From the IMG/VR virus record IMGVR_UViG_3300010885_012823, positions 1-44,668 of that record: a DNA stretch of 44,668 nucleotides; one strand, 5' to 3'. This document shows positions 29,339 through 37,180 of this stretch, in pieces (within the stretch, counting starts at the first letter, position 1; each line of letters opens with the position of its first letter). The notes under the pieces are model-generated. The model saw only the letters and a list, made by a program, of their open reading frames with translations, did no database searches and had not been told where the DNA came from. The translations under genes and the position numbers were made by a program. The DNA comes from a virus.

Positions 29339-31198
29339 ATGAAAAAGTTTTTATTAGTAAATTATACAACACCTAATTCTTCTGCAAATGAGATTCCATA
29401 CTTATGGCTAACTCTCAAATCTTATTTCCAACGTAACTCTAAAGTCCCATCTGCATGGCAGTGGCTCGATCCAGAGTATTCAGATGTCGCAGAATCCCCA
29501 CAAGAACTAATTGACAGAATTGTCATTCAAGAACCAGACGTTGTTGGTATTTCTTGTTACATGTGGAACGATAAACTCACAATGTATATTGCTGAGCAAG
29601 TCAAAATAAAACTCCCAAACATTAAAATTATTGCTGGTGGTCCAGCCCTTTACTACGAACATTTTAAAGGATGGTTTGTAGAAAATTGGTTCATTGACGC
29701 TTTGTGTGAATACTCTGGCTACGGAGAAGTTTTTATTACAGATTACCTTGATGGTGTTCCAATCAAAGATATTCCATTTTGTGTTTATCCTTCTTTGCGT
29801 AGAGCATTTTGGAATAAAGCTACCTCAGATTATAATAAAAGAGAATTTAATTATCCAATGCCATATTTGGATAACATTGAATATCTTAAAAAATTCCCAA
29901 AAGAACAAACAACAATTATTTTAGACACATCACGTGGGTGTCCTTATGCATGTTCATATTGTGAATGGGGTGGTGGCACTTCTACTAAGGTAGTATTTAA
30001 ACCTATTGAAGAAACTATTAAAGAACTTGAAGTTATATTTGAGTATCTAAACCCAACTCATATTGATATAATTAATGCTAATTTTGGGATAGTTAAAGAT
30101 GATATTAAAATTGCAAAAAAGATAGTAGAACTCAATAACAATAAATGTGTTAAATACATTAATGTTTATGGTCCAACTAAAACTAGCAAAAAATTTCTAA
30201 GAGAGATATATGATATATTTTTATCAAACGGAATTTTAGATGATATAAAAGTTTCTGTTCAGCACACAAATCAAACTATTTTAGATAATATCAGTAGGAT
30301 TGATATGCCGTTTGATGACCAGATAGAATTTTATACCGATTTAAGAGACAAGTACAATAAAAATTTAAGAGCAGAATTAATAATTGGTCTTCCTGGTGAA
30401 ACTCTTGATACATTTTATGATCTAATTGAACATATAACTAAATCAAAATATCTTGAACCTACTATGTATGAGTGGATGATGCTACCTTCTGCTCCAGCTG
30501 CATCGCCAGAATATATGTCTAGCATGAAAATTAAAACTAAGAAAGCATTAGTAAATTTAGATTTGCAGGGTAGAAATGTTATCCCAAGAAACGAATATAC
30601 AGTAGACAAACAATTAACTGGAACTAGACATTTATTATTTGATCAGAACTGGTTACAACCATATGACATTGTAGTATCAACATATTCTTATGGTGTTGAG
30701 CAGTGGGTTGAAATGGAAATGTTTAAATACTATTTCTCATTCCTGAATAGAAATAGAGTTATAACACCTATTCAAAATAGACTAAGATCTAATGGTGTGG
30801 ACATTACAGAATTTAACAGAACATTGTTTAAAGAATTTTTATTATCAATACCCACTATATCTAAAATCTATAATGAATTTATTGATAACATTAATAACGA
30901 AACACCCAGTGATATTTTATACGCAGACATTGCACCAAACTTACCTTATATAAGTCATTATAGCACTTTAAAGTTTTTGATTTTATTAAATCCAGAAGGA
31001 TTCTTTAACGCATTGAAGATATGGTTAAAGAAATATGATGATGCAATTTTAGATGATATTTGTGATCATCTATCTGATAATATTAAAACACCAATGAAAA
31101 TGGATATACCTCAAAAACAAAAAATTAGTGAGTGTATATCCATGTGTAAAAACTGGGGTGATAATTTATTCCTTGACGACTTCGTCCCCCAATATTAG
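29339..31198 (+). CDS. B12-binding-type radical SAM protein (619 aa)
   Basis: Residues 1-150 resemble the Rossmann-like cobalamin-binding domain found before many radical SAM cores: VGISCYMWNDKLT, then IKIIAGGPALYYEHF. The DxHxxG base-off motif is missing, as in many such enzymes. The radical SAM [4Fe-4S] site is SRGCPYACSYCEWGGG (Cys201, Cys205, Cys208). LRAELIIGLPGETLDTFYDLI further on also fits the Elp3/MiaB-like barrel. The C-terminal 200 residues are helical and unassigned. Enzymes of this class methylate or rearrange unreactive carbons using SAM; the substrate here is unknown. It is on the plus strand, and its last 33 bases overlap the end of the convergent SPASM gene. It faces the other radical SAM genes and probably works with them (inference). 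Confidence 0.82.
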   Translation: MKKFLLVNYTTPNSSANEIPYLWLTLKSYFQRNSKVPSAWQWLDPEYSDVAESPQELIDRIVIQEPDVVGISCYMWNDKLTMYIAEQVKIKLPNIKIIAGGPALYYEHFKGWFVENWFIDALCEYSGYGEVFITDYLDGVPIKDIPFCVYPSLRRAFWNKATSDYNKREFNYPMPYLDNIEYLKKFPKEQTTIILDTSRGCPYACSYCEWGGGTSTKVVFKPIEETIKELEVIFEYLNPTHIDIINANFGIVKDDIKIAKKIVELNNNKCVKYINVYGPTKTSKKFLREIYDIFLSNGILDDIKVSVQHTNQTILDNISRIDMPFDDQIEFYTDLRDKYNKNLRAELIIGLPGETLDTFYDLIEHITKSKYLEPTMYEWMMLPSAPAASPEYMSSMKIKTKKALVNLDLQGRNVIPRNEYTVDKQLTGTRHLLFDQNWLQPYDIVVSTYSYGVEQWVEMEMFKYYFSFLNRNRVITPIQNRLRSNGVDITEFNRTLFKEFLLSIPTISKIYNEFIDNINNETPSDILYADIAPNLPYISHYSTLKFLILLNPEGFFNALKIWLKKYDDAILDDICDHLSDNIKTPMKMDIPQKQKISECISMCKNWGDNLFLDDFVPQY

Positions 31199-32518
31199 AC
31201 TAAATGCTTTTAATTGAACTGCTCGGTGGTAAACCTTTTCAACTGCACAGTTAGTAAAAAATACATTATCTGGAACTTCAATCGGGCAGTTTGATTTACA
31301 CAAACGGAATACTTCACAAGACTTACAGTGTTTTTCATATCGTTCTAAGTCAACTCGTTTTAGTTTAACCTCATCGAGTTTATCAATATGTCCACCAATA
31401 AATGATTCATCTGTATGTGGACACGTGCGAATATTACCTTTCATATCAATAGAAAGAACACCCTCGTCATCGACACCACATGAAGTTATTGATGTTGGTA
31501 AAATTTGCTGGCGCAGAGTTTTAGCGTAAGGTAAAACACCCATACCACCTTGCCATAAATTACTGTTTAATATTTTATTGTCAACACCATTCATCTGTGC
31601 GTGACACGCATCAAGATATCGTTCCACAATACCTTTAAAGTCTTGTAATGCATCACCAGAAATAACGTGATTGGCAGATCCTGACTCATTGTCATAATCA
31701 TAGTTATGCCCAAGATTCCAAGAAATTGCCAAGCGAGTCATATCAAGACCATTTTCGGAAGCGTAGTTATAGAAGAAGTTATTAATATCAAATAGATTAT
31801 AGTTGGTGCGAGAAAGAACTGGGTTAAAACTAAACTTGATGTTGTCAATTTTCTGTGCAGCTTTTAATATTTCTATTTTTTTATGTAAGAATTCTTCACC
31901 ACGTAGTCTCTCATGTCCTGGACCATCATGGGAAACACCAATAGTAACTGTACCTTTTAACTTACTAAAAAACTCAATATGTTTCATTTGAAGTGGTGTA
32001 CCATTGGTAGGGATAAACCAAGTTAATCCTTCTCTATCATACGCAAGCATAATATCAACCATCGTTTTCCAATAAAGGAAAGTCTCACCACCCCACAGGT
32101 CAATCTTTTCTAAACGACTCATATCAAGTTTAGATAACTGTTGAATAAATTGTTCAGTTGTTGTAATCTTTTCTCGTTCATCTGGATTACCGATGTCTTT
32201 CTGCATACAATAATCGCAAGAATAGTTACAAGCGTGTCCAAGAAGAATACGAATCCAAAAAGGTTTATCAGATTTTACACGTGAACGTGTTTCTTTTATA
32301 ACATCATTATAAGCATCAGTGGGTTCTACTGGTTCAGATAAAGGATTCATATCTTTATCATACATGCCATTAGTGTAATTATCATAGTAGAACTCAATAT
32401 TACCAGAACGAAATTTGGTGATAGAATCTGCAGTTCGTTCAATCATGGGAAGACGATCTGGCTGTTTTTTCAGCGAGTTTTTAACTGATGTTAAACTAAT
32501 GTTATAAGTGTGTGACAT
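31166..32518 (-). CDS. Radical SAM/SPASM maturase (450 aa), complete SPASM set
   Basis: The core site is CNYSCDYC (Cys97, Cys101, Cys104), followed by WGGETFLY (the GGE motif, residues 143-145) and SHDGP near 197. The C-terminus has the full SPASM pattern of seven Cys: Cys347, Cys366 (preceded by G-x4), then Cys398-x2-Cys401-x5-Cys407-x3-Cys411, then Cys424. SPASM domains carry two auxiliary Fe-S clusters. They are found in enzymes that modify peptides or proteins, such as anSME, sactisynthases and the PqqE and MftC families. No transport or leader-binding (RRE) domain is obvious; the first 90 residues are long enough to hold an N-terminal recognition region. It is the last gene of the minus-strand operon; its ATG overlaps the previous stop codon. 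Confidence 0.85.
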   Translation of the reverse strand: MSHTYNISLTSVKNSLKKQPDRLPMIERTADSITKFRSGNIEFYYDNYTNGMYDKDMNPLSEPVEPTDAYNDVIKETRSRVKSDKPFWIRILLGHACNYSCDYCMQKDIGNPDEREKITTTEQFIQQLSKLDMSRLEKIDLWGGETFLYWKTMVDIMLAYDREGLTWFIPTNGTPLQMKHIEFFSKLKGTVTIGVSHDGPGHERLRGEEFLHKKIEILKAAQKIDNIKFSFNPVLSRTNYNLFDINNFFYNYASENGLDMTRLAISWNLGHNYDYDNESGSANHVISGDALQDFKGIVERYLDACHAQMNGVDNKILNSNLWQGGMGVLPYAKTLRQQILPTSITSCGVDDEGVLSIDMKGNIRTCPHTDESFIGGHIDKLDEVKLKRVDLERYEKHCKSCEVFRLCKSNCPIEVPDNVFFTNCAVEKVYHRAVQLKAFSLILGDEVVKE

Positions 32519-33615
32519 TATTTAAATTGAAAGAGTGGTACAATCTTGTCTGATGGTTTAACTAAACCATATTGAGTAGACTGCCAACCATTCTTTTCTA
32601 ATCCTTCATGAAAGTTATGATATGGTTTTAATGATAGTGTAGGTATAAAGTTATAATCTTTATTTACAATTAAGTTATCTGCAACCCAATTGAAATAATC
32701 TTTGTAGTTCTTTGTTGCTCCTGAATTCACTAATTTAAGTTTTTCTGCATGTCGTTTGTAAACATCTATTTTATTAGCCATATGAGAGTATACATGACGA
32801 TCTATATTCCAACCATCTGACAATGTATCATACGGAGTGCAATTAGGGTCAATCGCATCAATCAACGTATGGAAGAACGAATCATACTGCAAGTAATCTG
32901 CCTCACCACATATAGTAAGTATATCACCATTATGAGTTGCAAAAGATGTTTGTTGCGAATCAGTATTAAGTAATATAGTACTGAATGTTTTCGCATCGGC
33001 ATGGACAATGTATTTTACCTCATTAGCCACTACCCAGTCAAGTATTTTTTTAACTGGTTCCCATTGCAAAGATTCCGTATCTGTTTGAATAAGTTTAATT
33101 AATGATATCGGCATCATTTTGTGAATCTTATTTAACTTATCAATAATATCTTCTATTTTAATCTTTGCGAGCCATTTATCTGAGAACGTAAATTCGTAGA
33201 TACCTTTAGGTCTTGCAATCTCATTGGTTAGAATATCCCAAGCACGAATAAAGTTATTATCAGTCATAGAGCCAAAATGGAAGATCCCAGCATGGTCTTT
33301 ATACCATTCAAACAGATGGGGTTGCTGATGCTTCATCCAATATAAATCGTCAATGGTACTGGCGAAAGTATAATTTGAAAATACATCTACCCAAAGATCG
33401 CACATTTTTTGCGTAATTGCTTCTGGCACAAATCTTTGAAACTCAGTTTTATTCTTCTCAAAGTATTTGTCAACATAACATATATGACACCCAGCAAAAC
33501 AATTATATCTTCTAACTATTGAAAATATGACTTCGTTCTGCAAACTTTTGAGATTGTCTTCCTCTATAAAGTATTGTCTGAAGTTTGTGTCTTTAGTTAC
33601 TGTTTGGTTTCGCAT
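32518..33615 (-). CDS. Divergent radical SAM-like protein (365 aa), no SPASM
   Basis: RRYNCFAGCHICYVDKYF near residues 35-52 gives the CX3CX2C triad (Cys39, Cys43, Cys46) with an aromatic residue after the last Cys, as in radical SAM enzymes. The rest is divergent: there is no GGE motif and no SPASM cysteine cluster. Segments such as GIYEFTFSDKWLAKIKIEDI and ISLIKLIQTDTESLQW could be barrel strands. It may be a radical SAM enzyme acting on a different step, or a partner that has lost part of its activity. It overlaps the upstream SPASM gene by 23 bases and the downstream one by one base, so all three are co-translated. Its catalytic competence is unsure. Confidence 0.7.
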   Translation of the reverse strand: MRNQTVTKDTNFRQYFIEEDNLKSLQNEVIFSIVRRYNCFAGCHICYVDKYFEKNKTEFQRFVPEAITQKMCDLWVDVFSNYTFASTIDDLYWMKHQQPHLFEWYKDHAGIFHFGSMTDNNFIRAWDILTNEIARPKGIYEFTFSDKWLAKIKIEDIIDKLNKIHKMMPISLIKLIQTDTESLQWEPVKKILDWVVANEVKYIVHADAKTFSTILLNTDSQQTSFATHNGDILTICGEADYLQYDSFFHTLIDAIDPNCTPYDTLSDGWNIDRHVYSHMANKIDVYKRHAEKLKLVNSGATKNYKDYFNWVADNLIVNKDYNFIPTLSLKPYHNFHEGLEKNGWQSTQYGLVKPSDKIVPLFQFK

Positions 33616-34687
33616 CTGCTATCCAATGGAAGAAAGATTTTTTCTGGTGAATCTTGGTGGTGTATCTTACCATAGCATCAATAATTTGATAGAACTGAAC
33701 ACATTTAGTTCCAGGTTGTGTATCAAACATCTTATGTAGATATCTCAATCCACATAGTTTAGCAGACGGACAGGTTACGCATTTCTCTTGCACAATGTCT
33801 TCTGGCATACCGTTACGAATTAATGTTGGAACAAAGTTTGGAGATAAACCATCTGTCCATCTTCCTATTTGATACTCTGGTCTTTTATATTCACAGAAGT
33901 CATATTCAGAATACATAAACCCATCTGGTGATAGAATAATTTTATAATGGTCACCGAAATAATCTTTATCCGTAATACCATAGTTTCCGTCAATAAAAAC
34001 CATTATATTGTAGTTGTAAAGAACATTAATAAAACGCATAAACGAATCAGCGAATTGAGACAAGTCTAAATCTTCAACGAATGTTTTAAATTTGCGTTCA
34101 CCACGATGATGACGAAGTGGGATAAGATTGATTGAACGAACTTTGCAACGAGATATTTTATCAAGAATATCTTTAATACAATCTAAACTAAACACCTTAC
34201 GATCCAAAATAGGCATAACAAATTGCCAATGAATAGGGATGTTATAGTAACCACAAAGATCGATAGCTTGGTAGATATCAAACTCTTCACGATTTTCTTT
34301 TTGATAGATGAAGTCATAAGAGATAGTGAAACGTAAGTATTTACGCCACTTTTCTAAGAACCACTGTTCTTTATGGAACAGGGATGCGTTGGTAGTGATT
34401 GATACATACAATCCTTTACCATCTAGATAATCCTCTTTTAGTTCTTCGAGGATTTGATCCATTCGTTTAACGAATAGGAATGGTTCACCACCATGTAAAG
34501 CAATCCTATCAATTTTGCATTCTGAATCTTTATAAGACTGAACGAAAAAGTTCTTAATTAAACTAAGATGGTGTTTAGTGAACGTCTGGCTACCGATATC
34601 TTTTTTAATATATTCTCGGTCGCAATATTCACAATTAAAATTACATGCGTCACCAAGATAAATGGCGACTGTGTTCACATTTTTCAT
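33593..34687 (-). CDS. Radical SAM protein with reduced SPASM-like domain (364 aa)
   Basis: The triad lies at the extreme N-terminus, GDACNFNCEYCDREY (Cys15, Cys19, Cys22). HGGEPFL follows at about 65-71, and SITTNASL near 96-103, all typical of SPASM-subfamily enzymes. The C-terminal domain keeps Cys265, then Cys303-x2-Cys306-x5-Cys312, then Cys329. It lacks the complete set of seven, so it may hold one auxiliary cluster (a Twitch-like domain) or an altered one. The lack of any N-terminal extension differs from the 434-aa and 450-aa enzymes. It overlaps the upstream gene by four bases (ATGA). It probably modifies a peptide or protein together with its neighbours (inference). Confidence 0.82.
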   Translation of the reverse strand: MKNVNTVAIYLGDACNFNCEYCDREYIKKDIGSQTFTKHHLSLIKNFFVQSYKDSECKIDRIALHGGEPFLFVKRMDQILEELKEDYLDGKGLYVSITTNASLFHKEQWFLEKWRKYLRFTISYDFIYQKENREEFDIYQAIDLCGYYNIPIHWQFVMPILDRKVFSLDCIKDILDKISRCKVRSINLIPLRHHRGERKFKTFVEDLDLSQFADSFMRFINVLYNYNIMVFIDGNYGITDKDYFGDHYKIILSPDGFMYSEYDFCEYKRPEYQIGRWTDGLSPNFVPTLIRNGMPEDIVQEKCVTCPSAKLCGLRYLHKMFDTQPGTKCVQFYQIIDAMVRYTTKIHQKKSFFHWIADAKPNSN

Positions 34688-35988
34688 AATTCCAACGATA
34701 GTTTTCTATAAGATCTTTCTGCTTTTTTCTTACTTATGTCATCTTGAAGATCTAGGTATAACTTAACAATCTTCTGACACATATCATCTGGTCTGAATAA
34801 TGGAGATCCAGTAGATACGTTACCAGCTGGACACTGATAACAATAATTACGATAGTCACAAGTTTTACATTGTTCTTCTTCCGTATGCATTTTATTGTAT
34901 AGTTCTTGGAATACAGTATAACGATCGATATGAACACGATCTTCAAATACATTACCCAAAACTGTTGGTTTTACAGCGTCTGACTCTTTCATATTAGTGA
35001 AAAAGTAACAACCAGTAAAGTCGCCAGATCCATCTATGGCGATCATATCTGATCCAACTAAACAATTGTTTTCAACTTTTTGGCCAACTCCTTCTGAGAA
35101 TGAAATCTCGAAGTCGGCATACTTGTCAATTAGAGATACGATATCAGTGTGTAGAGTATTCCACCTATTGCTGTCCCAGCTAATATAACCAACGCTGGAA
35201 TCATGCACCAATGGATGCACAATAATGTTACGTATACCGACGCTATAAAGTCGTTCCATATATTCTTTAAAATATGGAGAGTGCTCTTGAGCAAGTGTGC
35301 AACGGAAAAAGATTCTATCTTTAGCATGTCGTGGGAGTCCTGAAACTGTTTCGATTATTTGGTCAATTTGTTCCTGCTTCAATTCACGATGGTCCAACTC
35401 AACTTGTAATGTATCTAAAGATATCATTAAGTAGGTAAAATCATATTCAAAATATGCTTTACAAAAATCTTTGGTAAGTAGAATACCATTGGTAATCATA
35501 CTAATAGCTTGTCCCTTATCGAAATAAGTTCTAGACAAATATTCTTTATTATTTTCTAAAAAGTTTACGATTAAGTCTTTATGAATTAGTGGTTCTCCAC
35601 CAAAGAATTGGAATCGTTTATTTTTAGCTTTGGAGTTATTCAGTAACCAGTCATACGCTTTTAATAAAGATTCTTCAGTGAATCTACCGTAGTCTTTCTT
35701 ATGCTGTTCGTAGCAGTAAGTGCAAGAAAGGTTGCAAGCGTTAGTTAGAATTACGTTCATGTGTCCAATATCTTGGAACAGATGTGGATACTCTGAGAAT
35801 GATACAACTCGTTCTTCTTTTGACGGAAGAATTGATATGAGTGTATTTTGTTTGGTTAATCCGTTTGGAGTTATAATGTCTTCAGTTCTAAACCGCAGAC
35901 TTCCATCAGGAGAAACCCCCACTGTTGCTTGATGGTCGGGGTTTATTGATTTTTTTGATTTATGAAATACTATAGGTTGTTCAATCAT
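34684..35988 (-). CDS. Radical SAM/SPASM maturase (434 aa)
   Basis: The core site is NACNLSCTYCYEQH (Cys85, Cys89, Cys92), followed by FFGGEPLIHKD (GGEP, 130-133), MITNGILLT, and MISLDTLQ near 188-195. This matches anSME and peptide-maturase enzymes closely. SPASM cysteines are Cys309, Cys327 (after G-x4), then Cys374-x2-Cys377-x5-Cys383-x2-Cys386, then Cys404. The N-terminal 75 residues (VGVSPDGSLRFRTEDIITPN and following) lie outside the barrel and may recognise the substrate. It is the first radical SAM gene of the operon, directly downstream of the 319-aa, 68-aa Cys-rich and 134-aa genes. That makes it the best candidate for acting on the Cys-rich tail. No RRE domain could be confirmed by eye. 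Confidence 0.85.
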   Translation of the reverse strand: MIEQPIVFHKSKKSINPDHQATVGVSPDGSLRFRTEDIITPNGLTKQNTLISILPSKEERVVSFSEYPHLFQDIGHMNVILTNACNLSCTYCYEQHKKDYGRFTEESLLKAYDWLLNNSKAKNKRFQFFGGEPLIHKDLIVNFLENNKEYLSRTYFDKGQAISMITNGILLTKDFCKAYFEYDFTYLMISLDTLQVELDHRELKQEQIDQIIETVSGLPRHAKDRIFFRCTLAQEHSPYFKEYMERLYSVGIRNIIVHPLVHDSSVGYISWDSNRWNTLHTDIVSLIDKYADFEISFSEGVGQKVENNCLVGSDMIAIDGSGDFTGCYFFTNMKESDAVKPTVLGNVFEDRVHIDRYTVFQELYNKMHTEEEQCKTCDYRNYCYQCPAGNVSTGSPLFRPDDMCQKIVKLYLDLQDDISKKKAERSYRKLSLEL

Positions 35989-36973: not shown

Positions 36974-37180
36974 TTATAGTCCGCCTCTACCGCATGCGCA
37001 TGCGCAATTGCAGTTACAGTTAGTTGAATAATCGTCGTATAAAATATGGGTATGATCTGTTAGATTATCTAAAATTGTTAACATTTGAAGAAATGTATCG
37101 GGAGTAATAGTATCACCAACAGCTTTCGGTTGAACAACAACACCAGATTGTCCGCTACCTGCGGTATTATCACCAGCCAT
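36974..37180 (-). CDS. Candidate RiPP-like precursor: 68-aa protein with alternating-Cys tail
   Basis: The protein is 68 aa. The first 20 residues are Gly/Ser/Gln-rich. Residues 21-51 hold a conserved unit (VGDTITPDTFLQML ... DHTHILYDDY) shared with the upstream 134-aa protein. The tail, residues 52-68, reads STNCNCNCACACGRGGL: five Cys at 55, 57, 59, 61 and 63, each separated by one residue, then GRGG. A leader-like body with a Cys-rich C-terminus next to several SPASM enzymes is the layout of sactipeptide and ranthipeptide precursors, though I know no family with this exact spacing. The ribosome binding site is excellent (GGAGG six bases before the ATG, inside the end of the previous gene). 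A metal-binding, non-modified structural tip is the alternative. Confidence 0.65.
   Translation of the reverse strand: MAGDNTAGSGQSGVVVQPKAVGDTITPDTFLQMLTILDNLTDHTHILYDDYSTNCNCNCACACGRGGL

Follow-up and report, generated by a model that had tools for sequence, protein, structure and literature searches.

What does a virus do with a very small protein that ends in strictly alternating cysteines, and what have the radical SAM genes next to it to do with this ending? The window, i.e. the whole stretch of DNA analysed here, is a 44.7-kb virus contig with T4-like myophage genes, including those for baseplate hub and wedge, tail tube, tube cap, DNA end protector and tail fibres. The protein in question, P1 (MAGDNTAGSGQSGVVVQPKAVGDTITPDTFLQMLTILDNLTDHTHILYDDYSTNCNCNCACACGRGGL), is encoded by a 68-aa open reading frame on the minus strand, the plus-strand translation of the same span being full of stops, and has the C-terminal tail NCNCNCACACGRGGL with cysteines at positions 55, 57, 59, 61 and 63. 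The five-cysteine alternating tail described in the initial annotation is real and was placed at the right coordinates, the coding strand being the minus strand. Likewise, the strong Shine-Dalgarno sequence claimed for P1 could be located, and the SPASM operon said to follow it was found downstream on the same strand, where a 319-aa protein and four radical SAM-type proteins are encoded. P1 is the second in a row of seven closely packed minus-strand genes (P2, P1, P3, R1, R2, R3, R4), whose coordinates are given in Table 1. Apart from one 83-aa frame antisense to a larger gene, P1 is the only open reading frame of at least 60 aa in the window with a C.C.C run.

Table 1 Features of the P1 locus (positions refer to the window).
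Feature	Position	Strand	Remarks
P2	37183..37587	-	134 aa; C-terminal part related to P1; two HxH motifs; no Cys tail
P1	36974..37180	-	HxH body (H43, H45) and alternating Cys tail at the C-terminus
P1 tail codons C55 to C63 (CNCNCACAC)	36992..37018	-	Cys invariant among homologues
Shine-Dalgarno sequence GGAGG of P1	37187..37191 (plus-strand cctcc)	-	6 nt before ATG; within the last P2 codons
P3	36014..36973	-	319 aa; adjoins P1 conservedly in close relatives
R1	34684..35988	-	radical SAM/SPASM; nearest to PapB-type maturases, far under that cut-off
R2	33593..34687	-	radical SAM protein
R3	32518..33615	-	divergent radical SAM-like protein; CFAGCHIC
R4	31166..32518	-	radical SAM/SPASM; the window's member of the general tail-enzyme family
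B12-binding radical SAM protein	29339..31198	+	adjoins the cassette; uncertain member of the system

P1 aligns with the C-terminal part of P2, and the HxH motif (H43/H45 in P1) is retained in the homologues of both proteins. Since the two are related and P2 lacks a tail, P1 is read as a one-domain tail-region protein that gained the Cys tail. No match to P1 was obtained among the isolates of the phage collection, and searches of solved structures with the sequences of P1, P2 and P3 yielded no convincing match. A homology of P3 to the gene that is usually sited between tail and enzyme in other loci was considered and is not supported by comparison.

The tail is conserved along with its operon. 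A search with R1 led to 58 viral loci and to an R1 homologue in 52 contigs, 50 of which encode a P1 homologue ending in (C-x)n-RG with n = 3-6. The two remaining contigs (L016 and L051) end before the expected position of the gene; L051 is regarded as incomplete because P1 sits beyond R4 in its relatives L049 and L050. Three loci from a separate search (L008-L010) were discarded as chance matches. An R1 operon without Cys tail, the case named beforehand as speaking against the pairing, did not occur among the complete R1 loci. In 40 distinct P1 sequences, the number of cysteines is 5 (31 sequences), 3 (5), 4 (3) or 6 (1), the steps being whole Cys-x units, and x is Q, N, A, E, G, D, S or T. 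Of the five cysteines and the GRGG expected from the initial annotation to be invariant, RG is kept, but the full GRGG and the number of cysteines vary. Both Cys codons are used over the 40 sequences (TGT 111, TGC 77); as the cysteines are invariant with either codon and x is variable, selection acts at the protein level. An origin of the tail by chance or from a DNA repeat was dismissed in view of the invariant cysteines and the use of either codon for Cys as well as for Asn.

The pairing of tail and enzyme extends well beyond P1. Viral contigs were searched for stretches that code for CNCNCNC, irrespective of any enzyme nearby. The sequence was found in frame as the very last residues of a variety of proteins. 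Radical SAM genes were recognised by motif instead of by profile (CxxxCxxC and, further on, a GGE-type motif). A radical SAM gene was located within 3 kb of 42 of the 57 C-terminal tails; of the 15 others, 14 have a contig or locus edge within 3 kb and one is an apparently spurious frame. Near CNCNCNC at non-C-terminal positions a radical SAM gene was detected once in 63 cases, and near a matched GNGNGNG control never (0/101). The corresponding p values (6e-26 and 2e-18, with loci as counts) overstate the certainty because related phages are not independent. Many control loci were short as well, and the contrast far exceeds what shortness could explain. The same DNA pattern in bacterial genomes belonged mostly to repeats, and none had a radical SAM neighbour.

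The reverse test, in which an alignment of enzymes (A4) served as the sole query, covered 79 loci, of which 71 were counted and 8 were incomplete. A tail was found in 69 of the 71, namely a C-terminal CxCxC in 66, a shorter NCRNCNC in two and a tail followed by a Hint domain in one; in the other two (L507 and L513) there is none within 5 kb of the enzyme. These tails, which had not been picked by x, contain N (119), A (9), D (9), R (5), V (4), Q (3) and Y (3) at this position, and 44 of 51 end precisely at the last cysteine. The number of viral stretches with a match to one enzyme profile is at least 578. The proposed pairing of a Cys tail with a SPASM radical SAM enzyme is therefore strongly supported from both search directions, and not only for this phage.

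Regarding the enzymes themselves, Pfam Radical_SAM matches R1, R2 and R4, with an additional SPASM match for R1, and both R1 and R4 pass SPASM model cut-offs, R4 that of the NCBIfam SPASM domain model. The radical SAM core CxxxCxxC reads CNYSCDYC in R4 and is invariant across A4; the 13 enzymes of this alignment, including R4, also share CNxxCxYCxQ, WGGE, SHDGP and the seven cysteines of a complete SPASM domain. R3 has no Pfam or NCBIfam radical SAM match and exceeds the cut-off of no curated family, matching PHROG 36229 only; the CxAGCxxC of R3 is kept among its relatives. All enzymes are far under the NCBIfam cut-offs for maturase families: for the PapB family (NF047865, cut-off 340 bits), R1 reaches 121, R4 38.7 and the general enzymes 53-75 bits. 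The nearest families, though distant, are mostly thioether or Cys-rich-peptide maturases. Among solved structures, A4 is closest in sequence to 8vpo and R1 to 5wgg. Against the phage collection, R1 gave distant matches only, to unannotated faecal phages. In a tree, R4 clusters with the general enzymes (support 0.986), and R1 and R2 form clades of their own. This placement makes R4 the best candidate for the tail enzyme of the window, and R1-R3 would then be extra enzymes of P1-type loci.

The proteins that carry the tail differ widely. Single-linkage clustering of their bodies resulted in at least seven unrelated groups, of which P1 represents a small one, so that the tail is the only common feature. 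The largest group consists of long fibre proteins, several of which match PHROG tail-fibre families. Reading P1 as a RiPP precursor with a leader, as the initial annotation did, agrees with its shortness but is less apt for the tailed proteins as a whole, which are mostly long (up to 891 aa), of fibre or structural type and from at least seven unrelated families. Sited on such bodies, the tail resembles a C-terminal tag of a virion protein that is modified in place, more than it resembles the core of a free peptide. A role of P1 as phage cargo, namely as precursor of a secreted free RiPP such as a bacteriocin, is in our view very improbable: its 68 aa, its leader-like appearance and the distant kinship of the enzymes to Cys-peptide maturases would fit, but most other tailed proteins are long and have tail-fibre N-termini, no transporter or immunity gene is among the annotations listed near the tails of phages JWF or 2-1 (see below), and the body of P1 is shared with the tail-less P2. 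Beside some tail-enzyme pairs, putative 2OG-Fe oxygenases were recognised by eye (L085:4609-5304, L125:10841-11482, L185:7461-8108, L506:5372-5998). A few small tailed proteins contain many extra NC pairs in the body and up to nine alternating terminal cysteines (L120:2306-2707, L112:4373-4894, L069:6363-6731).

We infer a modification of the tail, its chemistry, its presence in the virion and its role at the tip as follows. P1 would be a small protein of the virion, associated with its tail, and the C-terminal (Cys-x)n of P1 would be modified post-translationally by the adjoining SPASM radical SAM enzymes, chiefly R4; the same arrangement would apply to tail-fibre C-termini of many unrelated phages. 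Most likely, the enzyme would abstract hydrogen at the alpha carbon of the x residues, upon which the neighbouring Cys sulfurs would close as thioethers and leave a stiff cross-linked strand, and the finished tail could serve as a hard or metal-holding tip of a fibre or spike. Such a tip is suggested by the siting of the tails at the ends of fibres. We consider it likely that the alternating cysteines are the target of a SPASM radical SAM enzyme, which probably introduces thioethers and thereby finishes a fibre or spike tip. Three findings count against it: P1-type loci have four radical SAM genes, although one suffices elsewhere; all enzymes score far below the known maturase cut-offs; and the enzyme loci L507 and L513 are devoid of a tail within 5 kb.

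With respect to the chemistry, the residues at x comprise N, Q, E, D, A, G, S, T, R, V and Y, and a reaction at the backbone fits this variety better than a side-chain-specific one; the wide choice speaks for the alpha carbon or Cys as the site of reaction. The closest known systems are sactipeptides and ranthipeptides, i.e. thioether RiPPs with the SPASM radical SAM enzymes RumMC2, CteB and PapB, in which such an enzyme gene is likewise found beside a Cys-rich C-terminal stretch. PapB and CteB (5wgg), which belong to these systems, are also the best sequence matches of R1, and RumMC2 forms alpha-carbon thioethers (PMC8188230). Unlike in these systems, the phage substrates are of fibre type with unrelated bodies and strict C-x-C spacing, and the enzymes remain under every curated cut-off. 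The phage tail and its enzyme appear to work like a thioether RiPP system with a putative product chemistry.

Strict alternation and the loose choice of x would also suit a reaction other than thioether formation, for instance an epimerisation of alternate residues that yields a D/L needle or beta-helix. Radical SAM epimerases are known from RiPP pathways. However, the invariant cysteines suggest that sulfur is involved, and the nearest annotated families are, distant as they are, mostly maturases of the thioether or Cys-rich-peptide kind, so that we consider another reaction unlikely.

A further explanation, in which metal binding at a fibre tip as raised in the initial annotation does without any modification, is a serious rival: the thiols, spaced i, i+2 on one side of a strand, would bind a metal or cluster, chains of the fibre trimer would stack, and iron or another metal would be held as by the HxH motif of T4 gp37, the radical SAM enzyme acting elsewhere or helping in metal loading. 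P1 and P2 do have HxH motifs, and the tips of T4 gp37 and of the fibre of Alteromonas phage R22Y resemble P1 in its HxH body, in the i, i+2 spacing of ligands and in the fibre context. In T4 gp37, HxH with the same spacing as the Cys tail holds iron, and in marine phage fibres it binds or may bind iron (PMC11705849). The phage tails differ from such tips in having Cys in place of His and a dedicated radical SAM enzyme, and unmodified metal binding leaves unaccounted for why almost all tails, whichever of the unrelated bodies they are on and whichever search direction is taken, have a radical SAM/SPASM gene beside them. A need of HxH fibre tips for radical SAM enzymes is not known. We judge an unmodified metal-binding strand to be unlikely as well.

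In some phages, a second kind of processing may act on the tail. In the Achromobacter phage JWF, a temperate siphovirus (PMC3899368), the fibre protein gp28 contains QNCNCDCNCNCS, which is directly followed by a Hint domain, then by gp29 and by the radical SAM protein gp030. This Hint domain begins with CFPAGT and matches Pfam Hom_end_hint (E = 3e-12). The cultured Achromobacter phage 2-1 has the same arrangement with one Cys-x unit fewer. Hint-like domains directly after the Cys tail were seen in five separate loci (L083:7676-9127, L525:2296-3738, L506:3013-4437, L114:758-1585, L343:1340-2905); the assignment is based on Pfam for JWF gp28 and on sequence for phage 2-1, L506, L114 and L343. 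The tail of a P1 homologue (L074:7941-8564) is interrupted by an intein-like insert of 130 aa, and the predicted splice product ACQCNCACNCTCCTRG restores the alternation; the insert has no Pfam match, and its designation as an intein is based on the CFAGDT start and the restored tail. With these domains immediately behind the Cys tail or within it, Hint chemistry would determine where the tail ends. The likeness to Hint/intein self-processing applies to relatives only, and P1 of the window has no Hint domain. As a more far-reaching and tentative idea, to which we give somewhat less than an even chance, a widespread maturation in tailed phages, different from the fibre chemistry known so far, may use dedicated radical SAM/SPASM enzymes to turn a C-terminal (Cys-x)n tag on fibre or spike proteins of unrelated structure into a covalent ladder or a D/L-alternating needle as the working tip, trimmed or ligated by Hint domains in some phages.

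In the open literature, with bioRxiv preprints and most subscription journals outside the coverage, neither the alternating-Cys tails of phages nor the enzymes that go with them were found described. Several radical SAM genes in a T4-like genome, as in the window, were reported for the Campylobacter phages CP220 and CPt10, where 11-12 of them were called highly unusual and a metabolic role was guessed (PMC2853527); neither phage is among the matches to R1, R4 or the JWF enzyme. The pairing of Cys tail and radical SAM enzyme points to an undescribed chemical finishing of the phage parts that touch bacteria. If true, peptide-maturation chemistry would be used on virus particles, and a common class of phage genes, radical SAM (PHROG 1802), would gain a function. 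A C-terminal CxCxC next to a radical SAM gene would be an easy genetic tag for fibre tips in metagenomes, the general enzymes would constitute a new family for possible thioether chemistry, and JWF and 2-1 are cultured phages suitable for testing.

Two further observations concern plus-strand genes of the window. The B12-binding radical SAM protein listed in Table 1 shows a distant likeness to KedN5 C-methyltransferases and adjoins the cassette in several relatives, too. Between 38897 and 43623, three genes in tandem encode proteins of about 520 aa that contain RCC1-like repeats; the first of these proteins matches PHROG RCC1 and tail families.
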